NCBI RefSeq assembly: GCF_003610915.1
Contig: NZ_NSDJ01000001.1
Span: forward strand, 2,728,001 to 2,792,000
Source of the DNA: Rahnella variigena
Lineage (GTDB): Bacteria > Pseudomonadota > Gammaproteobacteria > Enterobacterales > Enterobacteriaceae
Direction of reading: 5' to 3'
DNA length: 64,000 nt
Below the pieces are notes generated by a model that ran no database searches, was not told where the DNA came from, and saw nothing but the letters and a program-made list of their open reading frames with translations. A program made the translations under genes and the position numbers. This document shows positions 6,796 to 63,322 of the stretch, in pieces (position 1 is the stretch's first letter; every line of letters begins with the position of its first letter).

Positions 6796-12405
<5,610 letters not shown>

Positions 12406-48458: not shown

Positions 48459-48650
48459 ATGAAAAAGATCAACATGAATGAAGCAAGCGCAATTGTTGGC
48501 GGTACCACGACTTGCGTAAACAGCTTTGAATTAAACCTGGTGGGTGATGCAACTGTTTGTAACGCAGTGAAAACCTGTACTGACAAAAATGGCGTTGTGA
48601 CTAAAACCTTCACCGCTGCAGCAATCATCAACTGCGGTAACGTAGGCTGA
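48459..48650 (+). CDS. Double-glycine leader precursor peptide with four core cysteines
   Basis: A 63-residue precursor. Residues 1-15 (MKKINMNEASAIVGG) form a classic double-glycine leader with hydrophobic residues at -4 and -12, cut by C39 peptidases after Gly15. The predicted 48-residue core begins TTTCVNSFELNLVG and holds Cys19, 34, 40 and 59, enough for two disulfides; it is rich in Thr, Ala and Val and lacks charge clusters. From memory it resembles DUF4762 proteins, small enteric peptides without known function. It is the first gene of an eleven-gene operon encoding an oxidoreductase, acyltransferase, exporters and fatty-acid enzymes. Confidence 0.85.
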   Translation: MKKINMNEASAIVGGTTTCVNSFELNLVGDATVCNAVKTCTDKNGVVTKTFTAAAIINCGNVG

Positions 48651-48704
48651 GAAACATCCGTTTCTTATTAAATCAGAATAAATAGTTTTACTGTTTTTCT
48701 GACA

Positions 48705-48731
48705 GGGCGTTGTATTTCATATACAACGCCC
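48705..48731 (+). terminator. Strong hairpin after the precursor gene, likely attenuator or 3' stabiliser
   Basis: GGGCGTTGTAT at 48705-48715 pairs perfectly with ATACAACGCCC at 48721-48731 around a 5-base loop. No T-run follows, so termination should be partial at most. Located between precursor and the rest of the operon, it could raise precursor mRNA relative to the downstream genes. Confidence 0.65.
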
Positions 48732-48788
48732 GCCTGATATTTCCCCGGTGAGCGTCGCGTATTATTATTTCAGGATGAAAAGCCTCCC

Positions 48789-49463
48789 ATGAAAAAAAGA
48801 ATTCTGCCCATTCTGGCGTATACCGTTTTTGTCGCGGTTATTTCAGCGCTGATTACGACAGCCTGGATCCATTACCTTGTGCGCAACCAAACCAGCGATG
48901 ACGGACAACAGGTACTGACATCGCTGTCGGCGGATAAATTAGCCAAAAGTCCGATTACGGATGGTGAAGATATTATTGAAATCTTCTCATACGGTTGTCA
49001 TTACTGTGCATTAAACGAAAAGAATGTTGAGGCGCTGGAAAAACGTATGCCAGCGGGTAAGAAACTGGTTCGCCTGCATTTCAGCCTGGATAATCAGGGC
49101 GGACTGGCGCGCTTTGCACCGGTATTTGCCACATTGCAGGTGATGGGCATTGAAGAAGCCCACCGTGAGAGCGCCTATGACGCGGTCATGAAAAATCACA
49201 TCGATTTGGGTGATCCTGCAAAACGAGATGCGTGGCTGGCAGAGAATAAGATTGATGTAGACGAATACCATAAAGTCAGTCAGTCGGCAGAAGTCAAAGA
49301 CCTGCTCGATTATATGACACGCGTTTCACAGTATTACGACATTAATGCTACGCCGACCTTTATTGTGGGCAAAAAATGGGTAGCGATTCAGGATCGTGAT
49401 TTTCCGTCATTCTCTGACAAATTACTCTCTATTTTGAAGAATGATCAGGCGCCGGAGAAATAA
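48789..49463 (+). CDS. Membrane-anchored DsbA-like thiol oxidoreductase
   Basis: A 224-residue protein with an N-terminal membrane anchor (about residues 6-30) and a periplasmic thioredoxin fold of the DsbA type. The redox motif is C70-H-Y-C73 in FSYGCHYCALN and the cis-proline loop is ATPTF (P189). DsbA itself has CPHC; CHYC is a variant. A dedicated oxidase fits a substrate with two disulfides, the four-cysteine precursor. Its stop overlaps the next gene by one base. Confidence 0.88.
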   Translation: MKKRILPILAYTVFVAVISALITTAWIHYLVRNQTSDDGQQVLTSLSADKLAKSPITDGEDIIEIFSYGCHYCALNEKNVEALEKRMPAGKKLVRLHFSLDNQGGLARFAPVFATLQVMGIEEAHRESAYDAVMKNHIDLGDPAKRDAWLAENKIDVDEYHKVSQSAEVKDLLDYMTRVSQYYDINATPTFIVGKKWVAIQDRDFPSFSDKLLSILKNDQAPEK

Positions 49464-50410
49464 TGAAATTCGTTGCCCTGTGGTGCGCGCTGTTTTGGAA
49501 AAACCTCACCGTCAGATGTCAGTGGTTTTTGTATAAACTCCGGCTTACTGGCTACAGGGCGCATTGTTTATTATTCCGGCACATGCATTATCGCGTTATT
49601 TTTGCTTTGTCCCACGTCAGCCGCTTTTTAGGGCTGACAGGCCGCGATGTGAAATTACGGGCGGCGGTCGCGCAGTCTAACCGTCAGTGTCTGATGAATG
49701 ACAATAAGAAATTTGATTATATCTGGCTGACCCAGCGGCGGCAGCTGCTGATTCAGGCGGTGACCTACGGACAGAATCGCCGTGCATTACGTGAGCTGGC
49801 CGACTGTTCGGCCCGGCTCAATGCGGTGGTCGAGCCGCTGCAACGCGCCGGTCAGCCGGTGATCCTCGCGCCATTACACATGGTGTCGGACGTACTCAGT
49901 ACCATGGTCGGTGCCGCGGCGTTTCCGGGTAAAGCAACGGTCATTACCTCGCGCAGCGCGGATGCGCATTCCGCAGCGGAACGGCAACTGGGTGGCGTCG
50001 ATCTGACCTATTGTTCGATACATGAAGATAATAAAAATATTGCCGGGAATCTGATGACGTCGGTCATGGAGGCCGCCGATAACCAGCGGAATATTATTTT
50101 ATTCCCGGATATCACACCTGATTTCACGCAGTTCGCCAGTAAAGACAAAGCAGAAAAATTATCCTGCCGGATATTTGGTCGTCCCGCCAGTTTACACAGC
50201 GGTATTATCCGGCTGGCACGAATGATGTCTGCGAAGGTGATTTTTTATCATCTTTATTATGACAAGGGGCTGAATATCGTTATTCATGACCCGGTCAGTG
50301 CAAAAGAATTAAAAGAAAAAATGCCGCGTATTATTGAACAAAGTATTCGTGAACACTCAACCGACTGGATGCTGTGGCATTCACATTCGTTATTTTTTAT
50401 TAATGAGTGA
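49463..50410 (+). CDS. LpxL/HtrB-like acyltransferase
   Basis: A 315-residue protein resembling the lysophospholipid/lipid A late acyltransferase family. A hydrophobic/basic N-terminus is followed by VILAPLHMVSDVLSTMVG near residues 133-150, aligned with the His-containing catalytic motif, and later NIILFPDITPDF and WMLWHSHSLFF, typical of LpxL-type ends. The motif reads H-x3-D rather than the usual H-x4-D/E. Family members move acyl chains from acyl-ACP to lipids; here the co-encoded ACP and peptide suggest peptide or peptide-lipid acylation. Substrate is inferred. Confidence 0.7.
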   Translation: MKFVALWCALFWKNLTVRCQWFLYKLRLTGYRAHCLLFRHMHYRVIFALSHVSRFLGLTGRDVKLRAAVAQSNRQCLMNDNKKFDYIWLTQRRQLLIQAVTYGQNRRALRELADCSARLNAVVEPLQRAGQPVILAPLHMVSDVLSTMVGAAAFPGKATVITSRSADAHSAAERQLGGVDLTYCSIHEDNKNIAGNLMTSVMEAADNQRNIILFPDITPDFTQFASKDKAEKLSCRIFGRPASLHSGIIRLARMMSAKVIFYHLYYDKGLNIVIHDPVSAKELKEKMPRIIEQSIREHSTDWMLWHSHSLFFINE

Positions 50411-50473
50411 AAACCCATCCGCAACAGCGCAGCGATATTACTGAAAAGAACAGGGCGTTTTAAGGTATCGATT

Positions 50474-52612
50474 ATGGATAATATTATTCCTAAGCTGGTT
50501 TATCAGGCAGAAACGAACGAATGCGCGCTGGCCTGTGTTTCTATGCTGGCGGAAACTCAGGGCATCAGCGCGCCGCTGGACGTGTTACGCGAACGTTTCC
50601 CGACATCGTCCCACGGCACCGCGCTGTCGACCCTGTGCGACATCTTATCTGAGCTGGCGATCCCGGCGTATCCGGTGGCGTTTGATTTCGATGAGCTGGC
50701 AGAACTGCCTTTACCCGCCATTTTGCACTACGGTGCCAGTCACTATGTCCTGCTGGCCTATCGTCAGGGGAGCTATGTCTGCGTGATGAATCCGGCGATT
50801 GGCGAACAGCTTCTGCCGGTTGCCGCGCTCAGATCTGAAATCAGTGGTTACGCGGTGGTGCTCGATCAGGAGGCGCCGCGCACTGCGCAACCGGCAGAAA
50901 AACAACCGCGCACGCGTCGTTTCCGCGCACTCGAATGCATGAGCCTGAAACAAACGGCAGCGATCCCCGGCATTTACAAGCTGATGTTGCTGGCATTTCT
51001 GGTGTCACTGACCTTGTTCATCATGCCGGTGATGGTCAGCTCGGCAATCAACAACGTTTTCTCTTCCGGCGGCAAAACCGAATTCCCGTATTTCTATTAC
51101 CTGCTGGCCTTCGTGGTCTCGACGCTGCTGGCATTTATTGTGCGCAGCGTAACCGAGCGGTTTATCAAACGTTTTGTCGTGATGCAAAGCGTCAGCGGTT
51201 TTGCCCGGTTGCTGAGCAACACGCTTTCTTTCTTTGAGAAACGCAGCCCCGGTGAAATCTACAGCCGTTTCTCCAACTGGCAGATGGCAGCGGCGCAAAA
51301 AATTGAGCTGGACAACGGCCTGCGCGTGGACTGGGTCGTCGGCGTGATTGCGCTGGCGGTGATGTGCTATATCAGCCCGCTGCTGGCCGGCATTTCCGCC
51401 ATCGGCGTCACGCTGATGGGGCTGGTCAGTGTCTGGGCGATTTTCCGCGACCGCTATTACACCCAGCAGGTTCAGGTAAAGAGTGCGGAACAAAGCGACT
51501 TCCTGCTGGAAACTATTCAGGGTTTCGCCACGCTCAAATCCGCCGGACTGAACAGCCAGCGTCAGGCGGCATTCGCCGGATATGCACTGTCGCTGTTTGA
51601 CTGCCGCCAGAAACAGAAAGTGTACGAGCAGGTGAAAAGTAGCCTGTATCAGCTGATTGGCAGCCTCGAGATGGTGTTCTTTATGCTGCTGGCGCTGCCG
51701 TTGCTGAAAGATAACCGGATTTCACTGGGTGAATTCTTTGCCTACAGCTTTGTGCGTCAGATTTTTACCGCTTACATCACGCAGATTTTCTTCTCTGTGC
51801 TGCAAAAGAATCAGCTGCACGTGATTGATACCCGTGCCGCCGATCTGTTCCCGCCGGTCAGGGAAGAGGCCGCCGGTGACTTACTGCCGCCTGTCCGTTT
51901 CAGCCAGGAGCTCAGCTACCGGGAACTTCAGTTTGCTTACGATCCCGGTAAACCGGTGCTGGATCACGTGTCGGTGACGGTGCGTCATGGCGAAACGCTG
52001 GCGATTGTCGGTGAGTCGGGCGCGGGGAAAAGTACGCTGCTGAAAGTCATTACCGGACTTATCGAACCTCAGGGCGGAGAAATCCTGGCCGACGGACAGC
52101 CGGTCAGCAGCCGTCAGGCACAGAAGCTGTTTTTCCTGCAAAGTCAGGAGGACATCCTGTTCAATACCAGCGTTCTGCAAAACATCACGCTGTTTGATCG
52201 TGAACACGACGCGCAGAAGCAGTTGCGTATCGATAAGTCGCTGCGCGGGCTGAACCTGACGGAGGTGATCGACCGTCTGCCAGGCAAACAAAACGCGCTG
52301 ATCCGCGAAAGCCATCCCGCGCTGTCGCTGGGGCAACGTCAGCGTCTGATGCTGGCGCGTGCGATGTACAGCGATTGTCCGGTGATGGTGCTGGATGAGC
52401 CGACGGCCAATCTCGATGAAGAGACGGCGCAGCAGGTGATGCAAGCCCTGATCAGCCATTGCCGTGAATACGGAAAAACCCTGATCACCGTAACGCACAG
52501 CGAAACCGCGCTGGCCTTGTTTGACCGGGTCTGTGTGATGAGAAATGGCCGCGTAGCCGCGACAACGGGCGCTGTGATTTCCGCTATCACCCCGCAAGGA
52601 GAACCGGTGTGA
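50474..52612 (+). CDS. C39-peptidase-containing ABC exporter
   Basis: A 712-residue exporter that removes double-glycine leaders and pumps the core peptide. The N-terminal C39 domain has Q11, catalytic C17 and H90 (GASHYVLL); the usual third residue in the DP motif is Asn106 (MNPAIG). Six membrane segments lie at about 160-430. The nucleotide-binding domain has Walker A GESGAGKST, signature LSLGQRQRLMLARA (an LSxGQ form) and Walker B VMVLDEPTANLD. It overlaps the next gene by 4 bp. Its likely substrate is the precursor at 48459. Confidence 0.92.
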   Translation: MDNIIPKLVYQAETNECALACVSMLAETQGISAPLDVLRERFPTSSHGTALSTLCDILSELAIPAYPVAFDFDELAELPLPAILHYGASHYVLLAYRQGSYVCVMNPAIGEQLLPVAALRSEISGYAVVLDQEAPRTAQPAEKQPRTRRFRALECMSLKQTAAIPGIYKLMLLAFLVSLTLFIMPVMVSSAINNVFSSGGKTEFPYFYYLLAFVVSTLLAFIVRSVTERFIKRFVVMQSVSGFARLLSNTLSFFEKRSPGEIYSRFSNWQMAAAQKIELDNGLRVDWVVGVIALAVMCYISPLLAGISAIGVTLMGLVSVWAIFRDRYYTQQVQVKSAEQSDFLLETIQGFATLKSAGLNSQRQAAFAGYALSLFDCRQKQKVYEQVKSSLYQLIGSLEMVFFMLLALPLLKDNRISLGEFFAYSFVRQIFTAYITQIFFSVLQKNQLHVIDTRAADLFPPVREEAAGDLLPPVRFSQELSYRELQFAYDPGKPVLDHVSVTVRHGETLAIVGESGAGKSTLLKVITGLIEPQGGEILADGQPVSSRQAQKLFFLQSQEDILFNTSVLQNITLFDREHDAQKQLRIDKSLRGLNLTEVIDRLPGKQNALIRESHPALSLGQRQRLMLARAMYSDCPVMVLDEPTANLDEETAQQVMQALISHCREYGKTLITVTHSETALALFDRVCVMRNGRVAATTGAVISAITPQGEPV

Positions 52613-53790
52613 GTTTCTCAATCAGACACATCGCCGCCGGACACCGCAAGGCATTTTATACGCTGATCCTTGTGGTGTTGATCCTGCTGGTCGCTGCTGC
52701 GTACGGCGTACACAGCATGATGTCCGGCACCGCCGCGCCGCTGGTCTCACAGGCCATCGGTCGCGGGGATATCGAAAAAACCGTACTGGCGACCGGTATC
52801 CTCAAACCTTCCGCGCAGGTCAACGTCGGTGCGCAGGTCAACGGTCAGTTGAAAAAACTGTATGTCCGTGCGGGCGACCGGGTCACCAAAGGCCAGTTAC
52901 TGGCCGAAATCGACCCGACGCTGCAACAGAGCGAACTGCGTAAATCCGAGGCGGAACTCGACAGTGCCGTGGCGCAAAAACAGGCGTCGCTGTATACGCT
53001 GACGCAATATCAGCTGGAGCTGAAACGTCAGTTACAGATGGATCGCGACGGATCAGGCACCAAAAGTAATCTCGAGCAGGCGCAGGCTAAAGTCGATACC
53101 CAGAAAGCGCAGATCAAAGTCAATGAAGCGCAGATTGTGCAGGCGCAGATGGCGCTGGAAACGGCGAAAGCCAATCTGGGCTATACGCGGATCCTGGCAC
53201 CGGTGGACGGGCAGGTGCTCGGCATCGTCACCAAAGAAGGGCAAACCGTGGTCTCCTCGCAGACTGCGCCAACCATTCTGGTGCTGGCCAACGTCGATAC
53301 CATGACGGTGCAGACCCGTATTTCAGAAACCGATATCCTGAAAGTGCATCCTGGTCAGCCGCTGTGGTTTTACGTGGTCGCCGATCCCAAACATCGTTAT
53401 CAGAGCGTCATGGGCACCTTGCAGGACGCGCCAAACGACGCTTTACAGGATGAAAGCACCAGCAGCCAGACTCAGCAACCTTCTGCCGTCTATTACAACG
53501 GCGTGTTCAGCGTGCCGAATCCCGATCATCTGCTGCGCACCTCAATGACCGCGCAGGTATTTATCATCACCGAACAGGCTAAAAATGTGCTGCGTCTGCC
53601 GGTGATGGCACTGGGTCAGCCACTGGGCGATGACCGGTATCAGGTGCAGGTGGTGAACGGCGACAAGACCGAACAACGGGTGATCCGTGCGGGCATTAAT
53701 GACCGTCAGTTTGTCGAAGTGAAAGACGGGCTGCGCGAAGGAGAGCACGTGGTGATGATGCAAAATGAGGCAGAGACGGCAAATGGCTAA
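52609..53790 (+). CDS. MacA/HlyD-like periplasmic adaptor
   Basis: A 393-residue membrane-fusion protein with GTG start after AAGGAG. It has an N-terminal membrane helix (about residues 17-37), lipoyl half-motifs (NVGAQVNGQLKKLYVRAGDRVTKGQLLAEIDP and GYTRILAPVDGQVLGI), a coiled coil between them (about 105-190) and beta-barrel plus membrane-proximal domains. This is MacA-type. It is the only adaptor in the operon although two ABC exporters are present, so it may serve both or only the MacB-like one. Confidence 0.92.
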   Translation: MSFSIRHIAAGHRKAFYTLILVVLILLVAAAYGVHSMMSGTAAPLVSQAIGRGDIEKTVLATGILKPSAQVNVGAQVNGQLKKLYVRAGDRVTKGQLLAEIDPTLQQSELRKSEAELDSAVAQKQASLYTLTQYQLELKRQLQMDRDGSGTKSNLEQAQAKVDTQKAQIKVNEAQIVQAQMALETAKANLGYTRILAPVDGQVLGIVTKEGQTVVSSQTAPTILVLANVDTMTVQTRISETDILKVHPGQPLWFYVVADPKHRYQSVMGTLQDAPNDALQDESTSSQTQQPSAVYYNGVFSVPNPDHLLRTSMTAQVFIITEQAKNVLRLPVMALGQPLGDDRYQVQVVNGDKTEQRVIRAGINDRQFVEVKDGLREGEHVVMMQNEAETANG

Positions 53791-55726
53791 TTCTCCGGTC
53801 ATCGAACTTTCGCATATCTCCCGCCGTTTTGGTGAGGGCAACGCTGCCGTCACCGTGCTCAAAGATATTTCCCTGCGCGTCAATGCCGGGGAAATGCTGG
53901 CGATTATTGGCGCGTCCGGTTCGGGTAAATCGACGCTGATGAACATTCTAGGTTGTCTGGATAAGCCGTCGGAAGGCGAAATGCGCATTATGGATGTGCC
54001 TGCGCATGTGGCGACCAGCGAACAGCTGGCGCAATTGCGCAGCCAGTATCTGGGCTTTATTTTTCAGCGCTATCACCTGATGCCGTATCTCACGGCCCTC
54101 GAAAACGTCACCATTCCGGCGCTGTATACCGACATGCCCGCGGCTGAGCGTCAGGCACGGGCGGAACATTTACTCAACCGGTTAGGGCTTGGCAACCGCA
54201 TGAATTACCGGCCCGCGCAGCTTTCCGGCGGGCAACAGCAACGTGTCAGTATTGCGCGGGCACTGATGAACGGTGCGCCGGTGATCCTGGCCGATGAGCC
54301 GACCGGCGCGCTGGACAGCACCAGCGGTCAGGAGCTGATGGCGATTTTGCATGGCCTGCATCAGGCCGGGCATACGCTGATTATCGTCACCCACGACCGC
54401 AGTATCGCCGAACAGTGTCAGCGTATTGTCGAAATCCACGACGGCGAGATTGTCGCAGACCGCATCAATCCGGTGATGCAGCAGGGCAAATCTCAGGGAT
54501 TACCGGCCATTGCCGCTACCGGACGCACGCCGCTCTGGCAGAGTCTGAAAGAAGCGGTGCGCATGGCGTGGCGTTCCCTGCTCGGACACCGGATCCGCGC
54601 CTTTCTTTCCATGCTCGGCATCATTATCGGCATCTCTTCGGTGGTGTCCTCGATGGCGGTGGGCGAGGGCGCACGGCAGAGCATTCTCAGCCAGATAAGC
54701 CAGCTTGGTACCAGCACCATCGAAATTCAGCCCGGTCTGGGCTGGGATAAACCGCGTCCTGATTTTGAACGTTCCCTGACGCTGGAAGACGTGGATTTGC
54801 TCGGCAGACAGCCGTACATCGACAGCCTGTCGCCGGTAGTGAGCAAAACTGTGATGGCAATCCGCGGCGGTAAGCAGGTGCTGGTGTCGTTGTCGGGCGT
54901 CAGTAACGGATTCTTTCGCGTACAGGGGCTTAACTTTATTGCCGGAAACCGTTTTACCCCGCGCGATCTCGACGACCGCGAGCCGGTAGTGATTATCGAC
55001 CCAAATGTGCGCAGTACGCTGTTTCCCGGACAGGATCCGCTGGGTGAAATTATCCAGCTTTCCGGCGTGCCTTACCGGGTGATCGGCGTGGCGGATAAAA
55101 AAGGGCCGAAGTATATCGGCGAGCAGCTCGGCGCGTGGATCCCTTACACCTCCTTACTGGAGCGCATGTCGGGGGATACGCCGCTGCAATCCATCACCCT
55201 GCGCATTGCCGACGGTTATCCGACGGATGTCGCCCAGCGTAACGTTGAGCAACTGCTGGATTCGGCGCATGGCAAACGCGATTTCTTCACCATGACCAAC
55301 GACCAGCTGACGAAAACCATCCGTAAAACGTCGGAATCCATGACGCTGCTGATCACCGCGATTGCCGGGATTTCGCTGCTGGTGGGCGGTGTGGGCGTGA
55401 TGAACATCATGCTGGTGTCGGTGACGGAAAGAACGCACGAGATCGGCATTCGTCTGTCGGTTGGCGCACGTCCGGCGGACATCATGCGTCAGTTCCTGAT
55501 TGAGGCGGTGGTGATTTGTACCCTAGGCGGTCTGATCGGCATTGTCGGATCCGGCGTGGCAGGGCTGATTTTTTCTCAGGTTACGCAGGAATTCACCATG
55601 ATTTTCACCTGGCCGCCGATCCTTTTAGCCTGCGGTTTCTCGGCGCTTATCGGGCTCGGCTTCGGCTTTTTCCCGGCACGCAACGCCGCGCGTTTGCATC
55701 CGACAGAGGCGCTGGCACGCGAATGA
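53783..55726 (+). CDS. MacB-like ABC exporter
   Basis: A 647-residue MacB-type protein: an N-terminal ABC domain (Walker [10 protein letters not shown], signature [15 protein letters not shown], Walker [13 protein letters not shown]), a membrane helix near residue 275, a large periplasmic domain and three C-terminal helices. ATG 53783 is preferred; an in-frame ATG at 53765 is possible. MacB works from the periplasm by mechanotransmission with MacA and an outer-membrane channel. It overlaps the adaptor gene by 8 bp and the outer-membrane gene by 4 bp. Confidence 0.92.
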
Positions 55727-57117
55727 ACAAACTGAATTTACTCTCAATGGCGGTGATGACGTTACTGATGACCGGCTGTGGTCAGGCGCTGAAAAGCGAA
55801 TACCAGCGGCCGATGCTCTCAGTTCCGCAAACCTGGCGCGTGCAGGATACCGGCGAAGGCGTGGCGAAATTTTCCCCGCACTGGTGGGATAACTTTGATG
55901 ACCCGCAGCTGTCACGGCTGATTGTTTCCGCGTTGCAAAGCAATAACGATCTGGCGCTGGCGGGCATAAAACTGCGGCAGGCGCTGCTGACGGCGGGGAT
56001 CTCAGATCTGAATCTGACCCCTGATTTTTCCGCCAGTGCATCGGCCAGCAACACCAAAAATATGCGCCGCGAGACCACGCCGGTCGAAAGTTACGCAAAC
56101 TCACTGTCGGCCTCTTATGAGCTGGATCTGTGGGGGAAACTGGCGCGCACCCGCGAGCAGTCCGAGTGGCTGGCAAAAGCCTCGCAGCAGGATTTGCAGG
56201 CCACGGCGCTGACGCTCATCGGCACTACCTCACAGCTTTACTGGCAGATTGCCAGCCTGAATCAGCAGATCAGTAATTTGCAGCAAAGTCTGGCGATTGC
56301 CCGTGAAACCCTGGCGATGGTGACGTCACGCTGGAAAGCCGGTGATCTCGGTCAGCTGGATTATTTGCAGGCACAGCAAACGGTGCTGAGCCGCGAAAAC
56401 AATCTGCGCGATTTGTATCAACAGCGCGATGAAAACCGAAATGCACTGGCGATTTTACTCAGCCGCCCGCCGGGGCAATACCCTGCGGAGCGTCAGTCGC
56501 TGGATATTCATCAGAGCGTGCCGGTGGCGCAGCGTTTACCGCTTGAAGTGATCGCCAGAAGGCCGGACGTGCAGTCGGCTGAGCTGAATCTGCGTGCGGC
56601 GCTGGCCGGTTCGGACGTCGCACGGCTGAGCTTTTATCCGTCGCTGACGCTGAATGCGTCGCTGAATGCCGGGGCTTCTGTGTTTCAGCAATGGTTCAGC
56701 AATCCGGCCAGAACGCTCGGCTCTGCGCTCGACCTGCCGTTTATCGAATGGAACAAAGTGCGGCTGACCGTTGAACAATCCGGTCTGGATGTGCAAACCG
56801 CGGCGATTCAGTTCCGCAGCGCGTCGTACAGCGCGTTGCAGGATATCGACAATGCCATGTCGCAGCGGCTTACCTATCAGCAGGAAAAACAGCGGCAGCT
56901 GCAAGATCTGGCATTAAGTCAGCAGCGGCTGGCACTGGTGGAAAGCCAGTATCGCCACGGTTCGGTGGTGTATCAGACGCTGCTCGACGCGCAGAACACC
57001 TTGCTCGACAGCCAGAACACGCTGGTCACCACGCAATATAACTATCTGTATTCCACGATGAAACTCTGGCTGGCGCTGGGTGGCGGGGAAGACAACACAT
57101 TGAGTCAACAAGGATAA
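55723..57117 (+). CDS. Outer-membrane efflux lipoprotein (TolC/NodT type)
   Basis: A 464-residue outer-membrane channel protein. The signal peptide ends in lipobox LMTGC (Cys18), and the mature protein starts GQALKSEYQRPMLSVPQTW, then SPHWWDNFDDPQLSRLI as in NodT-type factors. Two repeated helical hairpin halves with SYELDLWGKLARTREQ and the C-terminal LDLPFIEWNKVRL match OprM-type lipoproteins. The true start is ATG 55723, overlapping macB; a longer frame beginning at 55516 is an artefact. It should complete a MacA-MacB-OMP tripartite pump. Confidence 0.92.
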   Translation: MNKLNLLSMAVMTLLMTGCGQALKSEYQRPMLSVPQTWRVQDTGEGVAKFSPHWWDNFDDPQLSRLIVSALQSNNDLALAGIKLRQALLTAGISDLNLTPDFSASASASNTKNMRRETTPVESYANSLSASYELDLWGKLARTREQSEWLAKASQQDLQATALTLIGTTSQLYWQIASLNQQISNLQQSLAIARETLAMVTSRWKAGDLGQLDYLQAQQTVLSRENNLRDLYQQRDENRNALAILLSRPPGQYPAERQSLDIHQSVPVAQRLPLEVIARRPDVQSAELNLRAALAGSDVARLSFYPSLTLNASLNAGASVFQQWFSNPARTLGSALDLPFIEWNKVRLTVEQSGLDVQTAAIQFRSASYSALQDIDNAMSQRLTYQQEKQRQLQDLALSQQRLALVESQYRHGSVVYQTLLDAQNTLLDSQNTLVTTQYNYLYSTMKLWLALGGGEDNTLSQQG

Positions 57118-57120
57118 AGC

Positions 57121-58392
57121 ATGCAAAAGGATGTTTTACAGACGGCAGACACGCCGCGTCGGGTGGTCGTGACCGGTTACGGTGCGGTGACCCCGCTGGG
57201 AATGAACTCCGCCGAAAGCTGGGCCGCGATCATGGATTACACCCCCGGCTACCGCTACTGCGACAAATCAGCTGCCGGGATTAAATCGCGTTTTTACGGC
57301 CTGATTGATCATGAACCTTCGTTCAAAGGCGTGCCCGCGGCGATCCGTCGCCGCCTGCCGCGTTATGCCCGGCTGACACTGGCATCCGCGCGGGAAGCCA
57401 TGCAGATGGCGTTTGGCGATGACAAGCCGGAGCAACATTACGATTTGCGCGACTGCGGCGTCATTATTGGCACCGGCTGGGCGGGGCAGGATGAAACCCA
57501 GCTGCATTACGAAGACTATCTGCGTACCGGTATGGGATCTCCTTTTGGCTGCTTTTTCTCCATGCCGAATTCCGCCACGGCGGCTGTGAGTCTGCTGTGG
57601 GGGTTGCGTGGCTATCAGAACACGCCGGTCGCGGCCTGTGCGACCGGAACCATCGCGGTCGGCGATGCGTTCGAACTGATCCGCAATGGCCGGGCCAGCA
57701 TGATGCTGGCGGGCGCGGGGGAATCACTGCGCTCTGATTCGGCAGTATGGAATATTGACGTGCTGGGCGCGCTGGCCAGTGAACAGGAAGAAATCACCCG
57801 CGCCTGTTGCCCGTTCAGCCTGCATCGCAACGGTTTTGTGCTCAGCGAGGGTGCGGCGGTGCTGTGTCTGGAAGAGCGGGAATCTGCCCTTGCGCGCGGC
57901 GCAAACATTCTCGGTGAGATCCTGGGTTACGGCAATTTCTCCGATGCCTTTGATTTTACCGCACCCGCTGAAGACAAAATTGCGCGGGTGCAAACCATCC
58001 GCCATGCGCTGGCGCAGGCCGGTATTGCTGCCAGCGATCTGGATTATATCAATGCGCACGGCACCTCTACACAGCTCAACGATCTCAACGAAACCGAAGC
58101 GATCAAGATTGCGCTGGGCGAAACGGCGGCTTACGCCACGCCATGCTCCAGTACCAAATCCTATACCGGACATCTGATCGCGGCAGCAGGGAGTTTTGAA
58201 TCCATCGTCTGTCTGCAGGCGCTTGAGCATCAGATCATGCCCGCAACCTGCCATCTTGATGCGCCCGATCCGGCGTGCGATCTGGATTACGTCCCCAACG
58301 TGCATCGTCCGGCGGTACTGAATACCACGCTGAACCTGAGTTTCGGCTTCGGCGGGGCGAACGCGGCGCTGGTGATCGGAAGGGGGAAATAA
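57121..58392 (+). CDS. Beta-ketoacyl-ACP synthase (FabF-like)
   Basis: A 423-residue condensing enzyme. The catalytic triad is C173 (VAACATGTIAVG), H313 (NAHGTSTQLND) and H351 (KSYTGHLIAAAG), with K346 also conserved, so it should be an active elongating KS that decarboxylates malonyl-ACP. Its distance from housekeeping FabF and its context within the operon indicate a dedicated pathway. It starts 3 bp after the channel gene and ends with TAATG overlap into the next gene. Confidence 0.92.
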   Translation: MQKDVLQTADTPRRVVVTGYGAVTPLGMNSAESWAAIMDYTPGYRYCDKSAAGIKSRFYGLIDHEPSFKGVPAAIRRRLPRYARLTLASAREAMQMAFGDDKPEQHYDLRDCGVIIGTGWAGQDETQLHYEDYLRTGMGSPFGCFFSMPNSATAAVSLLWGLRGYQNTPVAACATGTIAVGDAFELIRNGRASMMLAGAGESLRSDSAVWNIDVLGALASEQEEITRACCPFSLHRNGFVLSEGAAVLCLEERESALARGANILGEILGYGNFSDAFDFTAPAEDKIARVQTIRHALAQAGIAASDLDYINAHGTSTQLNDLNETEAIKIALGETAAYATPCSSTKSYTGHLIAAAGSFESIVCLQALEHQIMPATCHLDAPDPACDLDYVPNVHRPAVLNTTLNLSFGFGGANAALVIGRGK

Positions 58393-59216
58393 TGCTGGCG
58401 GCTGACACTCTGCGTTACAGCCTGTCGGATGCCGAACGCTGGGCGGCATTTTCCGGTGATTACAATCCGATCCATTTTGACGCGGCAGAGGCGCAGCGTC
58501 TTGGTCTGACCGGATTATGCGTTCACGGAATGCGCGCGATGCTGGATATGAAATCGGCGCTGAGTACCTCGCGTGAAAAGCACGGGTTTACGGCAGACGG
58601 GCTGATGTTCACCAGCCGTCTGCGCGAACCGGTGTTGTGCGACACGCTGTATCAGCTGCCGGTGCGCGAAACGCTGCGTGATGATGGTGTGCAGCTGAGC
58701 GCCAGTTTGCGTCGTGTGCAGACACAGCAGGCCAGCATCAGCAGCAAACTGACTGCGACGGACGCGCTGGTGTTACCGCCGGTCACGCAGATGAATACGC
58801 TGGGCGCGCAGGAAATGGCAACGCTGCATACACAGTTTCTGGCTGTCGGCAGCCCGGTGGTTCCGGCGTGGAGCTTTCTCGACGCGGTGCTGTTTCGCCA
58901 GCTGGTGAACGCTCCGCAGACGCTTGAAACCGTGCACAATCTTTTACCGTCGGTTCAGGCGACCAGCCTGGGTGACGTGTTTACCCGGGTACAGGTGGTG
59001 CAGACGCATCATGAAACGCATTTTTCCCCGCAATTACTGACCCAGACAGAGCAGGGACAGTATTTCGGCGCGATACATTACGCCATCCGGCCGACGCTGA
59101 TCATGGGCGACAAACAGCGCGGACTGGTGCTGCTGGCAGGCATTCAGGCATGGCAGGACGGTGAACCGCTGATGTCCGTCGCAGTCACGCTTAAAACCGG
59201 ACCGCTGACTGAATGA
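58392..59216 (+). CDS. MaoC-like hydratase/dehydratase
   Basis: A 274-residue protein. Near the N-terminus FSGDYNPIHFD contains the D-x4-H (D23, H28) of MaoC/(R)-hydratase hot-dog enzymes, followed by GLTGLCVHGMRAM. The length allows a double hot-dog fold, with a second half lacking an obvious catalytic motif. It would dehydrate 3-hydroxyacyl-ACP or hydrate enoyl-ACP in the local fatty-acid cycle. The start ATG overlaps the ketosynthase stop. Confidence 0.82.
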   Translation: MLAADTLRYSLSDAERWAAFSGDYNPIHFDAAEAQRLGLTGLCVHGMRAMLDMKSALSTSREKHGFTADGLMFTSRLREPVLCDTLYQLPVRETLRDDGVQLSASLRRVQTQQASISSKLTATDALVLPPVTQMNTLGAQEMATLHTQFLAVGSPVVPAWSFLDAVLFRQLVNAPQTLETVHNLLPSVQATSLGDVFTRVQVVQTHHETHFSPQLLTQTEQGQYFGAIHYAIRPTLIMGDKQRGLVLLAGIQAWQDGEPLMSVAVTLKTGPLTE

Positions 59217-59271
59217 CACACTGATTTTTCATAAAAAACAAAGACAACTGACTCACTTAAAGGAATAAAAC

Positions 59272-59526
59272 ATGGCGAATTATGATGAGGTTTACAGCAA
59301 GGTTTGCGAGATGCTGTGTGACGCGAAGGATCTGGAACAGGAAGATCTCACCCCGGACATGCCGTTATATCAGCTCAAACTCGACAGCCTGGATTACGTT
59401 GAACTGATGGTGCTGGCGAAGAAAGAGTTTGGCGTCACCATCGAAGCTGATTTGTTCGTCGATAACGTGAACATTACGGTGCGTGAGCTGTGCCAGTATC
59501 TCAGCGAAAAAGCCACTAAGCCATGA
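59272..59526 (+). CDS. Acyl carrier protein
   Basis: An 84-residue acidic four-helix protein. The phosphopantetheine serine is S39 in LKLDSLDYVELMV (the DSL motif). It carries the growing chain for the ketosynthase, dehydratase and reductase beside it. AAAGGAATAAAAC precedes the ATG. The stop overlaps the reductase start by 4 bp. Confidence 0.93.
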   Translation: MANYDEVYSKVCEMLCDAKDLEQEDLTPDMPLYQLKLDSLDYVELMVLAKKEFGVTIEADLFVDNVNITVRELCQYLSEKATKP

Positions 59527-60269
59527 AAGAAGTCATGGAAAATCAATGGATTTTAATCACCGGTGGCAGCCGGGGGATCGGACGCGCCGCCGTGCAGCGT
59601 CTGGCGAAAGAATGGAATGTGGTGTTTACCTGGTGTCAGGGCGAAAGCGCCGCCCGTGAGGTGGAACTGGCCTGTGCGGGATTGCCCGGCCGGGTCGAAA
59701 GTCATCAGTGCGACGGGCGTGATGAGCAGGCAGTTATGCGTCTGGCCACTGACCTGCTGGCACGCTACGGCGCGCCGCGTGCAGTGGTGCATAATGCGGG
59801 TATCACCCTTGATGCACTGCATATTCACCAGAACGCGGATAACTGGCGCAAAGTCATGGACACCAACTTAAACGCCATCTTCTACTGGAACAGGCAGTTA
59901 CTTGAACCGATGATGATGCAGGGCGGTGGTTCGGTGGTAATGATGTCGTCGGTGACGGGCATAAAGGGTAACAGTGGCCAGAGCGCTTATGCGGCGAGTA
60001 AGGCAGCGATGATCGGCCTGGCGCGGACGTTATCGGTAGAGCTGGGGCGCTTTAACGTTCGGGTTAACTGCCTGCTGCCCGGTTATATCGACACCGAAAT
60101 TCTCGCTGATATGCCTAAAGATAAGCTGGTGGCGCTGCGTAAAACCATTCCGATGAAACGTTTCGGAAAGGTGGACGAAGTGGCAGGCGCGGTGGCGTGG
60201 CTGGTCAGTGAAGACAGCACGTACATGACCGGACAAAGTCTCATTCTGGACGGTGGTCTTTCCGCCTGA
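59523..60269 (+). CDS. 3-oxoacyl-ACP reductase (FabG-like SDR)
   Basis: A 248-residue NADPH-dependent SDR: nucleotide loop TGGSRGIG (13-20), HNAG near 90-93, active-site N115, S143, Y156 and K160 (SAYAASKAAMIG), and LILDGGLSA at the end. It reduces 3-ketoacyl-ACP made by the local ketosynthase. It is the last gene of the operon and is followed by a strong terminator. No enoyl reductase is present, so chains may stay unsaturated or 3-hydroxylated unless a housekeeping enzyme acts. Confidence 0.92.
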   Translation: MKEVMENQWILITGGSRGIGRAAVQRLAKEWNVVFTWCQGESAAREVELACAGLPGRVESHQCDGRDEQAVMRLATDLLARYGAPRAVVHNAGITLDALHIHQNADNWRKVMDTNLNAIFYWNRQLLEPMMMQGGGSVVMMSSVTGIKGNSGQSAYAASKAAMIGLARTLSVELGRFNVRVNCLLPGYIDTEILADMPKDKLVALRKTIPMKRFGKVDEVAGAVAWLVSEDSTYMTGQSLILDGGLSA

Positions 60270-60293: not shown

Positions 60294-60324
60294 AAAACAG
60301 GACGCATTGCGTCCTGTTTTTTTT
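60294..60324 (+). terminator. Terminator of the peptide/fatty-acid operon
   Basis: AAAACAGGACGCA (60294-60306) and TGCGTCCTGTTTT (60308-60320) form a long perfect stem followed by more T. It lies 25 bp after the reductase stop codon. Confidence 0.92.
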
Positions 60325-60979: not shown

Positions 60980-61528
60980 ATGAAAAATCGTAAATACCTG
61001 ACTCCGTCTGAGGTTGAGAAACTGCTTGAGGCTACGTTGCGCGGGAGGCACGCAGAACGGGATTATTGCCTGATCTGGATGTGTTTTATCCACGGTTGCC
61101 GGGTCAGTGAAATCAGCAGCTGGCGGCTCTCGGATATCGACATGGAAGGCAATAATATCTACATCCACCGGTTAAAAAATGGCTTCTCTACCGTTCATCC
61201 TCTCTATATGCGGGAAAGGAAATCGTTAATGCTGTGGATGAATAAAAGAAAGCAATACCGTGGTGCGGATTCCGACTGGTTGTTTCTTTCTAATCGCGGT
61301 TCAAAATTATCACGACAGCGCATTTACTGGTTAATTAGAAATTATAGTCAGGCCGCTAATCTGACTATTAACGCCCATCCGCATATGTTAAGACACGGCT
61401 GTGGCTTTGCGCTGGCAGACAGAGGGATTGATACCCGCTTAATTCAGGATTATTTAGGTCATCGTAATATTCAGAACACGGTTTTATATACGGCGAGCAA
61501 CGCCAAAAGATTTAAAGAAGTCTGGTAG
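60980..61528 (+). CDS. FimB/FimE-type tyrosine recombinase
   Basis: A 182-residue minimal tyrosine recombinase like FimB and FimE, which invert the fimbrial promoter segment. The catalytic residues are R41 (HGCRVSE), H135 and R138 (HMLRHG), H161 (YLGH) and the nucleophile Y170 (TVLYTAS). AGAGG precedes the ATG. Only one such gene is in the window. It lies 29 bp from the left inverted repeat of the invertible segment and on the same strand as the pilin genes. FimB versus FimE cannot be decided. Confidence 0.92.
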   Translation: MKNRKYLTPSEVEKLLEATLRGRHAERDYCLIWMCFIHGCRVSEISSWRLSDIDMEGNNIYIHRLKNGFSTVHPLYMRERKSLMLWMNKRKQYRGADSDWLFLSNRGSKLSRQRIYWLIRNYSQAANLTINAHPHMLRHGCGFALADRGIDTRLIQDYLGHRNIQNTVLYTASNAKRFKEVW

Positions 61529-61557
61529 TTAACCTGTAATTAATTGTTTCAATGGAG

Positions 61558-61869
61558 TCATTTTGAACTAAATTGGAGCATACTCTAATCAGCCGGTAAA
61601 TTTCTGTCAATACTGAGTGCACCCCTCCGCAGAAGTTTATTAAAACTATATAAAATTCAATTACTTACAAGTTAATTTGTTATTTCAGCACACCGGAAGT
61701 CTCTCGGTTTTTTCTTATATCCTCTTCGCTTGATTTCTCACGCCATACTCACTCAGCCTGTCAATGCTTTAGTTTAATCTCATAGAATCCTCATTTAAAA
61801 GAATTATATTCTGCACTGAATTCTCTATTTAGCATAATAAACCAAAGGAGTCACTTTAGTTCAAAATGA
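61558..61869. mobile_element. Invertible fimbrial promoter segment (fimS-like)
   Basis: Perfect 15 bp inverted repeats TCATTTTGAACTAAA (61558-61572) and TTTAGTTCAAAATGA (61855-61869) bound 282 bp of AT-rich DNA, 312 bp overall; E. coli fimS is 314 bp. A FimB/E-type recombinase gene precedes it and a type 1-like pilin gene follows 155 bp later. The promoter found inside points left, away from the pilin gene. The repeat sequence differs from the 9 bp E. coli repeats. Confidence 0.88.
61582..61610 (-). promoter_or_regulatory. Promoter inside the invertible segment, pointing away from the pilin gene
   Basis: Read on the minus strand: TTGACA (61610-61605), a 17-base spacer, then TAGAGT (61587-61582). 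The -35 is perfect and the -10 matches four of six. Transcription would start near the left inverted repeat and leave toward the recombinase gene. After inversion the same promoter would sit beside the right repeat and face the pilin gene. Confidence 0.8.
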
Positions 61870-62024
61870 ATCGTTTGGGTTTCGGGGTTAAACCCGTCCG
61901 GCGGCTTATTAAGTGGGGTGGAACCTCATGAACTAAATAAAGGAATGACAGATGGTTTTGTCAAAACTAATTCGGACACCGGGAAAGGTGTTTCGATGTG
62001 CATTATGTTAATAGGAAAAATTTC

Positions 62025-62546
62025 GTGAAAAAGAATCTTCTTGCTGTTGCCCTGATCGCCTCTTCTGTATTCGCTTCTTCTGCTTTTGCAGCAGATGGCG
62101 CCGTTAACTTCACTGGCACTATCACAGATGCGGCTTGTACGATCGATACTGCTTCTCAAAACCAGGATGTCTTCCTGGGCAATATCGCCCGTACCGCGTT
62201 CCCTGTTGCGGGTTCACTGGCCGCTGCCAAAAAATTCACTTTAGTTCTGACCGACTGCCCTGACACCGTGACCGGTGCGACCGTGCGTTTCGACGGTACT
62301 CAGGTTTCTGGTGACAACACCGTGCTGGCGCTGACTGCCGGTGACAGCACTGCTTCAGGCGTAGGTATTCAGATTTCTGACAACCAGAACAAAGTGGTTC
62401 CGTTGTACGAAGACTCCTCTGTTTATCCGCTGGTCAGCACCGGTCCTAACAACCTGGACTTCAGCGCCCGTTATATCTCCCTGACTGACTCAGTCACTGT
62501 GGGTGATGCAAACGGCGTGACTCAGTTCACCGTGGTTTATCAATAA
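62025..62546 (+). CDS. Major fimbrial subunit, FimA-like pilin
   Basis: A 173-residue pilin with GTG start after an AGGAA sequence (an ATG-less start; an upstream in-frame start at 61998 gives an implausible leader). The signal peptide MKKNLLAVALIASSVFASSAFA is followed by ADGAVNFTGTITDAACTIDTAS. One disulfide is expected between the Cys of DAACTID and that of LTDCPD. It ends with the alternating hydrophobic strand QFTVVYQ and penultimate Tyr, typical of chaperone-usher pilins. Expression depends on the invertible segment upstream. Confidence 0.92.
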   Translation: MKKNLLAVALIASSVFASSAFAADGAVNFTGTITDAACTIDTASQNQDVFLGNIARTAFPVAGSLAAAKKFTLVLTDCPDTVTGATVRFDGTQVSGDNTVLALTAGDSTASGVGIQISDNQNKVVPLYEDSSVYPLVSTGPNNLDFSARYISLTDSVTVGDANGVTQFTVVYQ

Positions 62547-62577
62547 GCCTTTTGATTCGCTTCAGTTGAATTAAGTC

Positions 62578-62605
62578 AGACCAGGGGAGTGCATGCCCCT
62601 GGTCT
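62578..62605 (+). terminator. Hairpin between pilin and chaperone genes
   Basis: AGACCAGGGG (62578-62587) and CCCCTGGTCT (62596-62605) form a perfect 10 bp stem with an 8-base loop. There is no strong T-run, so it likely stabilises pilin mRNA and lowers downstream expression, as in other fim operons. Confidence 0.75.
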
Positions 62606-62635
62606 ATTTGAATGGTTAAGACAGGCAGGGACACC

Positions 62636-63322
62636 ATGAAAACATGGCGCGCTACAGCGGTGGCAGCATTATTAATGACCTTCGGCATGGCCGCACAGGC
62701 GGGTGTCGTGGTCGGCGGCACGCGTCTCATCTATGACGGCGGCAAGAAAGAATCCTCCATCAATATCAGTAACCCCGATAAAACGCCTTATCTGATCCAG
62801 TCCTGGGTGGATGGCGCTGAAAACGGCAAAACAGCACCGGCTGACAAAGCGCCGTTCATCGTGACGCCACCTTTATTCCGCCTTGACGGTAATCAGCAAA
62901 ACATTCTGCGCGTAGTGCGTGCGGGCGGTGATTTGCCTGAGACCAAAGAGTCGCTGTACTGGCTGAATATCAAATCGATTCCTTCTGCCGAGAAGCGGGA
63001 AAACACCCTGCAGATTGCCGTGAAAACGCGCATCAAGCTGATTTTTCGCCCGTCAGGTGTGAAAAGTACGCTGGAAGAGTCCGCAAAAACGCTGACATGG
63101 AAACGCACCGGTAACCGCATTCAGGTGACCAATCCGTCGGCGCATTACATCACTTTCTTCAACGTGAAAATCAATGGCAGCGCGATGAAGAACGTCACCA
63201 TGGTCGCACCGCAGTCTGATGCCAGTTTTGACTTACCGGCTGGTGTCACCGGCGGATCACTGAGCTGGCAATTCATCAACGATTACGGCGGCACCAGCAA
63301 ACCTTTTATTGCCAGTCTCTGA
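62636..63322 (+). CDS. Periplasmic fimbrial chaperone (FimC/PapD-like)
   Basis: A 228-residue chaperone. Signal peptide MKTWRATAVAALLMTFGMAAQA is followed by GVVVGGTRLIYDGGKKESSINISN (conserved Arg of the subunit-binding cleft and G1-type strand region). The PapD signature region is LYWLNIKSIPS, and IKLIFRP precedes domain two. ATG 62636 matches the signal peptide; an in-frame start at 62612 is less likely. It escorts pilins to the usher encoded downstream. Confidence 0.95.
   Translation: MKTWRATAVAALLMTFGMAAQAGVVVGGTRLIYDGGKKESSINISNPDKTPYLIQSWVDGAENGKTAPADKAPFIVTPPLFRLDGNQQNILRVVRAGGDLPETKESLYWLNIKSIPSAEKRENTLQIAVKTRIKLIFRPSGVKSTLEESAKTLTWKRTGNRIQVTNPSAHYITFFNVKINGSAMKNVTMVAPQSDASFDLPAGVTGGSLSWQFINDYGGTSKPFIASL

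Follow-up and report, generated by a model that had tools for sequence, protein, structure and literature searches.

An eleven-gene unit at positions 48459..60269 of a 64,000-nucleotide stretch of the Rahnella variigena genome (contig NZ_NSDJ01000001.1, hereafter the window) is likely, at a probability of roughly 65% in our estimate, to make and secrete a lipidated, disulfide-bonded peptide. This reading of the sequence draws on the observed gene content and order, the co-inheritance of the genes, their intact catalytic residues and the match between a DsbA-like gene and the cysteines of the precursor, together with predicted folds. The initial annotation had described an operon that joined a double-glycine peptide to a dedicated fatty-acid pathway and two exporters, nearly contiguous and closed by a terminator, and all 11 open frames were found on the plus strand in the order claimed:

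48459..48650, plus strand: DUF4762 precursor of 63 aa, with a double-glycine leader (residues 1-15) and a core containing C19, C34, C40, C59 and D42-K43-x-G45
48673..48731, plus strand: two RNA hairpins (48673-48702 and 48705-48731) in the precursor-dsbA gap, without a T run (RNA fold)
48789..49463, plus strand: DsbA-like oxidase with a CHYC active site (Pfam and residue check)
49463..50410, plus strand: acyltransferase of predicted LpxM/PatA fold, with an HX3D motif of its own (H139, D143)
50474..52612, plus strand: C39 peptidase-ABC exporter (C17, H90, N106)
52609..53790, plus strand: MacA-like periplasmic adaptor (Pfam/NCBIfam)
53783..55726, plus strand: MacB-like ABC pump (first in-frame start of the frame at 53765)
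55723..57117, plus strand: NodT-type outer-membrane channel (TIGR01845)
57121..58392, plus strand: FabF-like ketosynthase (KS), C173-H313-H351
58389..59216, plus strand: MaoC-like dehydratase, SGDxNPxH
59272..59526, plus strand: acyl carrier protein (ACP), attachment Ser39
59523..60269, plus strand: FabG-like ketoreductase (KR), GGSRGIG and YxxxK
60294..60320, plus strand: terminator-like stem of 12 pairs, followed by a T run

Gaps of 138, 63 and 55 bases follow the precursor, acyltransferase and MaoC genes, respectively, and the remaining junctions overlap or span 3 bases, in agreement with the compact, terminated arrangement originally proposed. Ten of the 11 proteins were covered by a Pfam and NCBIfam scan, in which DSBA scored 45.2 bits, Peptidase_C39 74.3, MacB_PCD 137.6, OEP 125.5, ketoacyl-synt 114, MaoC 34.6 (cut-off 27) and PP-binding 49.2, and the FabG-like protein was called from its two motifs.

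A KS scan of one genome per species recovered 26 Enterobacterales loci at a KS identity of at least 67%, beyond which identity fell to 43%. Since all 11 genes were matched in the same order in 23 of these 26 loci, the arrangement is more than chance. Two further loci (L004 and L012) are truncated by a contig end and begin inside the C39 gene, and L021 has no match to the precursor or to DsbA; internal stops were found near match ends only, except in L011, in which the C39 gene is split over two frames. The genera represented include Rahnella, Leclercia, Pantoea, Ewingella, Serratia, Enterobacillus, Providencia, Hafnia, Cedecea and Klebsiella, and the 11 proteins of the unit are 85-100% identical to those of the Rahnella victoriana and R. 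bonaserana loci. None of the 12 next-best KS loci (L028-L039) matched the peptide, DsbA, acyltransferase or exporter genes. Moreover, when pairwise distances were compared, those of the acyltransferase tracked those of seven other unit genes (r 0.82-0.98, 21 rows), which indicates that it was inherited as a block with the unit.

The same picture emerged from a panel of 394 genomes drawn evenly from the order Enterobacterales. DUF4762 was found in seven of them (eight places, one an orphan copy), and the acyltransferase family in ten, including these seven, all of which carry the full unit; the other three (G228, G004 and G105) have parts of it. A genome search for precisely this co-occurrence with the lipid genes had been suggested by the initial annotation. 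Named matches to the acyltransferase family include Klebsiella, Serratia, Providencia, Yersinia and Citrobacter, and a class-level draw of 369 genomes returned a single match, the window's own. On these sequence comparisons, the genes for the peptide, the acyltransferase and the fatty-acid enzymes are inherited together as a unit, and therefore the outcome that had been named as fatal to the proposal, lipid genes standing beside this peptide only in this strain, does not apply given the 23 complete loci.

Related forms of the unit are also carried by plasmids. Among 72,556 plasmid records, the acyltransferase was found in 15, comprising ten from Escherichia coli, two from Salmonella and one each from Chimaeribacter, Serratia marcescens and Caballeronia. 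In E. coli, the operon comprises, in this order, DsbA, acyltransferase, C39, MacA, MacB, channel, KS, MaoC-like, ACP and KR, with no adjoining precursor. However, a double-glycine protein of 73 residues, with four cysteines in its core and the sequence DKHG, is encoded elsewhere on an E. coli plasmid (L115:4148-4369); this protein was chosen by eye among dozens of open reading frames (ORFs) from a pattern scan of the whole plasmid. A search with this precursor returned 12 of the 72,556 records, exactly the ten E. coli and two Salmonella records that hold the acyltransferase, although two pairs of equal length among the 12 are probably the same plasmids entered twice. The distance between precursor and operon reaches 46 kb, as in CP070400. 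Ten of 5426 complete E. coli genomes matched the E. coli form, nine over at least 80% of the query and the tenth through a transposase stretch. A DNA search of the plasmids with the whole unit gave six records, Chimaeribacter at 8% of the query and five at 1%.

The S. marcescens plasmid has a different gene order and a two-cysteine double-glycine ORF. In the decayed Chimaeribacter copy (L082), the acyltransferase and C39 genes are in pieces, neither the precursor nor DsbA was matched, and the ORF considered as a candidate precursor (L082:8367-8561) has no double glycine. A Salmonella plasmid (L111) likewise bears a decayed copy, with C39, MacB and channel annotated in pieces. Two E. coli chromosomes, NZ_CP128926 and NZ_CP178694 (H31, H32), hold a second, 91% identical piece comprising KS, a hypothetical protein, ACP and a short-chain dehydrogenase/reductase; plasmids of these strains carry the whole unit, and one chromosomal piece adjoins an IS3 element. 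On the Caballeronia plasmid, serine- or glycine-rich double-glycine ORFs (L114:6967-7167 and 7540-7656) precede a distant relative of the acyltransferase, an HlyD-like adaptor, a C39 exporter and a TolC-like channel, a set that is possibly a betaproteobacterial cousin of the unit.

The precursor belongs to DUF4762 (PF15959), with 37.3 bits against a cut-off of 27. Met1, Ala9, Gly14-Gly15, C19, C34, C40, D42, K43, G45 and C59 are invariant among 25 precursors, the copy at L002 being identical to that of the window, and K43 is the sole invariant reactive side chain of the core besides the cysteines and the aspartate. This lysine is kept in the E. coli and Salmonella precursors, in an orphan copy (L103) and in a diverged precursor with two core cysteines from a genome of the window's genus (G228), which has the genes from acyltransferase to ketoreductase and no DsbA match. 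The predicted model of the precursor, with a mean predicted local distance difference test score (pLDDT) of 72, a predicted template modelling score (pTM) of 0.48 and core blocks at about 79-86, places strands at residues 18-28, 31-41 and 47-54 and residues 42-45 in a turn; no PDB match with E <0.001 was found for this fold. Because residues 19 and 40 lie opposite each other by strand register and the G228 precursor has lost its first and third cysteines together while keeping the second and fourth, the disulfide pairs are probably C19-C40 and C34-C59. A DsbA-like gene goes with the four-cysteine precursors of the window, of the 23 complete loci and of the E. coli and Salmonella plasmids, and no DsbA match was found in six loci with 0-2 core cysteines (L021, L100, L101, L102, L112 and L114). 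This restriction to four-cysteine precursors links the oxidase to the peptide.

Precursor copies also vary in number and place. Two tandem, differing DUF4762 precursors stand ahead of one operon at L013:1175-1626 and at L017:1195-1613. The orphan precursor (L103:9447-9644, on G296:C52) has GKFG instead of DKxG and stands apart from the main unit that its genome also carries; no exporter adjoins it. Rahnella laticis SAP-17 has two units in one genome (L021 and L007), the former having no DsbA and, downstream of its ketoreductase gene, a different double-glycine ORF with two cysteines.

The enzymes that would build the acyl chain appear catalytically intact. Counting the window and Chimaeribacter copies, the KS Cys-His-His triad, the MaoC SGDxNPxH motif and the ACP serine were each kept in 28 of 28 sequences, the KR tyrosine and lysine in 27 of 27, and the CxxC of the DsbA-like oxidase in 24 of 24. 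The C39 cysteine and histidine are present in 26 of 26 exporters, which, with the Gly-Gly of the 25 precursors, agrees with a double-glycine exporter. In the 5.5-Mb host genome (G000), five other KS places, three canonical Lip_A_acyltrans genes and three other C39 proteins were found, so that the copies within the unit are dedicated extras. No enoyl reductase, malonyl transferase or thioesterase was seen among the 11 genes, ten of which were scanned with Pfam; with malonyl supplied by the host, the chain expected from the family chemistry would be a hydroxy, a 2-enoyl or a longer unsaturated one, and it would stay on the ACP until transfer.

It could be argued that these fatty-acid genes make a separate lipid, for instance an aryl-polyene-like one, and have no more in common with an unmodified peptide than an exporter operon, given that aryl-polyene clusters likewise contain KS, KR, dehydratase and ACP genes; we regard this as very improbable, since the block is co-inherited with the precursor. 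The aryl-polyene assignment itself was rejected: such clusters have paired ketosynthases, whereas the unit has one, and a two-KS set of the host's own lies elsewhere (G000:C1, about 4.404-4.409 Mb; L120). That set, which also includes a reductase, is possibly an aryl-polyene cluster, and its KS proteins share 32% and 28% identity with that of the unit.

A lipidated peptide could be produced as follows. KS, KR and MaoC would draw on host malonyl units to assemble, on the dedicated ACP, an acyl chain of the hydroxy or unsaturated type, and the membrane-bound acyltransferase would transfer this chain to the peptide at the cytosolic face, most likely to the invariant K43 of the DKxG turn. Acylation would probably occur before export, because acyl-ACP and the active sites of LpxM-type enzymes are cytosolic. 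The C39 exporter would then cleave after Gly-Gly and move the peptide into the periplasm, where the DsbA-like enzyme would close the two disulfides, and MacA, MacB and the NodT-type channel would expel the product.

The step most exposed to doubt is the identity of the acyl acceptor. The folds closest to that predicted for the acyltransferase, LpxM and PatA, acylate lipids, and the enzyme might thus act on lipid A, a phospholipid or another envelope lipid of the producer for self-protection or anchoring, leaving a peptide that is otherwise only disulfide-bonded; an envelope so modified could also supply the immunity for which no gene was seen. This alternative seems unlikely, though well within consideration, as the host already has its three canonical lipid A acyltransferase genes and the precursor core has an invariant lysine. 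Moreover, in two loci (G004 and G105) a double-glycine ORF occurs with the acyltransferase, C39, MacA and MacB genes, and in G105 also with the channel, whereas no KS, MaoC, ACP, KR or DsbA match was found in the fetched 16 and 19 kb. The comparison of loci favours the peptide as acceptor, because acyltransferase, double-glycine ORF and C39 exporter stay together in these two loci free of fatty-acid genes and because the E. coli precursor is on the same plasmids as the acyltransferase even when far from the operon.

Several observations weigh against acylation of the peptide by this set of genes. No product is known, and an envelope lipid is a possible acceptor instead. The acyltransferase scores 18.6 in Pfam against a cut-off of 22.3 for Lip_A_acyltrans (PF03279), and thus its earlier description as LpxL-like holds for the predicted fold, which is of the LpxL/LpxM kind, and is weaker than claimed for the sequence. 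The canonical motif of lipid A acyltransferases is HX4D/E; in this family HxxSD is invariant in 48 rows, and the Caballeronia relative is without the motif aspartate. The third catalytic residue of the C39 domain is Asn in 26 of 26 copies and not the usual Asp, and a distant E. coli MaoC-like copy keeps the D, NP and H of its motif without the SG. As for the proposed attachment site, DKxG is a common beta-turn sequence and the conservation of K43 may be structural. Among unrelated precursors, which were chosen by eye in ORF lists, [DN]Kx[GN] is present in L021, L101, L102a and L112 and absent from L102b and both Caballeronia ORFs; DKxG is missing from these three and, in its strict form, from L103, and outside DUF4762-like precursors the occurrence of the motif is at chance level (5-25% of shuffled cores where present).

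Many database entries of the acyltransferase family are named 'ABC transporter' although they are predicted acyltransferases, which may have hidden the family. A sequence search for relatives of the enzyme with solved structures found none that was meaningful.

Among known systems, the rhizobial NodE-NodF-NodG proteins with NodA offer a parallel, in which a KS, an ACP and a reductase reserved for this purpose supply a special acyl chain and an acyltransferase attaches it to a molecule that is secreted; however, the acceptor of NodA is a chitooligosaccharide rather than a ribosomal peptide, and NodA is of another family. Unlike LpxL/LpxM and PatA, the acyltransferase of the unit falls below the Pfam cut-off, has HX3D in place of HX4D/E and travels with a peptide. 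Class II microcins of the MccV type resemble the unit in their small, cysteine-bearing double-glycine precursor and C39 peptidase-ABC exporter, whereas the unit adds fatty-acid genes, an acyltransferase, a DsbA-like enzyme and a second, MacAB-NodT pump, with no immunity gene seen; a term search of the main text of a survey of these microcins found no 'MacB', 'acyl' or 'fatty acid' (PMC9746304). According to sections of PMC13060382, lipolanthines, goadvionins, lipoavitides, selidamides and nostolysamides are fatty-acylated ribosomal peptides, the last two being acylated on ornithine or lysine side chains, and GNAT enzymes act there on lanthipeptides or on NHLP/Nif11-leader peptides; in selidamides and lipolanthines the GNAT enzyme usually comes together with a lanthionine synthetase. 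In contrast, the unit has an LpxM/PatA-fold enzyme and disulfides, with no GNAT or lanthionine synthetase among the ten proteins scanned, the eleventh being FabG-like. DsbA oxidation and MacAB expulsion have precedent in STII, which DsbA oxidises and MacAB-TolC carries out of the periplasm (excerpts of PMC5985334), and MacB-type pumps (PleABC) export Pseudomonas lipopeptides (excerpts of PMC8788793). In these cases, as proposed here, the cargo that a MacB-type pump picks up is periplasmic, being a lipopeptide or a peptide oxidised by DsbA, while the cargo of the unit is predicted to enter the periplasm via the C39 exporter.

The statement of the initial annotation that no characterised system has this exact set agrees with searches of an open-licence library of 5.39 million papers, which omits most subscription journals: no description of such a system was found there, DUF4762 was unmentioned, and searches for lipidated or acylated microcins or bacteriocins returned lanthipeptide work only. 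The ribosomal lipopeptide is a known type, within which the unit has a fair chance of deserving a class of its own. In its full form the proposal is tentative, and we would give it somewhat less than even odds: an LpxM/PatA-fold peptide lysine acyltransferase with its own mini fatty-acid pathway would tag a disulfide-stapled beta-sheet peptide at the tip of the DKxG turn, C39 and MacAB exporters would work in series, and the kit would move on plasmids and islands through Enterobacterales with its precursor swapped. If true, ribosomal peptide chemistry would gain a lipidating enzyme that has the fold of lipid A acyltransferases and its own fatty-acid supply pathway, present in common enterobacteria and on E. 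coli plasmids. Questions that become testable are how two pumps in series can carry a lipidated peptide out of a Gram-negative cell, what kind of chain results when KS, KR and MaoC act with no enoyl reductase, and whether lipidation or the pump stands in for an immunity gene of the classical kind.

The microcin-like character attributed to the product was not established. No immunity gene was seen in the unit, which has no extra ORF, and the ORFs shared by at least three genera within 2.5 kb upstream or downstream include fimbrial, FaeA-like and regulator genes, with no immunity gene among those scanned and several small ones unscanned. A fimbrial or chaperone gene was found in the fetched stretch of 25 of 41 cluster loci, against 1 of 20 control stretches of 20 kb each, taken at even spacing from the genome of the window; the loci in this comparison are mutually related, and the control is one genome. 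These genes lie at 60980-63322 in the window and in the flanks of L002-L027, L104-L109 and L114, and their arrangement varies: downstream with a recombinase in the Rahnella type, upstream with a LuxR-type regulator in the Klebsiella type. Given such neighbours, an antibacterial role should not be assumed. The product might instead be a surface agent or colonisation signal that acts alongside fimbriae, which would be compatible with a lipidated peptide and would fit the lack of a visible immunity gene; we consider it a minority possibility, because 16 of the 41 loci, including the four E. coli, Salmonella and S. marcescens plasmid stretches and the Providencia loci, have no fimbrial gene, and fimbrial islands may just be insertion sites.

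A defence-system reading was also tried and rejected: PADLOC, with eight of the 11 proteins scanned, matched the exporter only, to ATPase-type models. No Rfam match at gathering was obtained in a structured-RNA search. The precursor-dsbA gap (48651-48788) folds with a z of -5.15, none of 200 shuffles being equally stable, and its two hairpins are a possible transcript stabiliser or attenuator.

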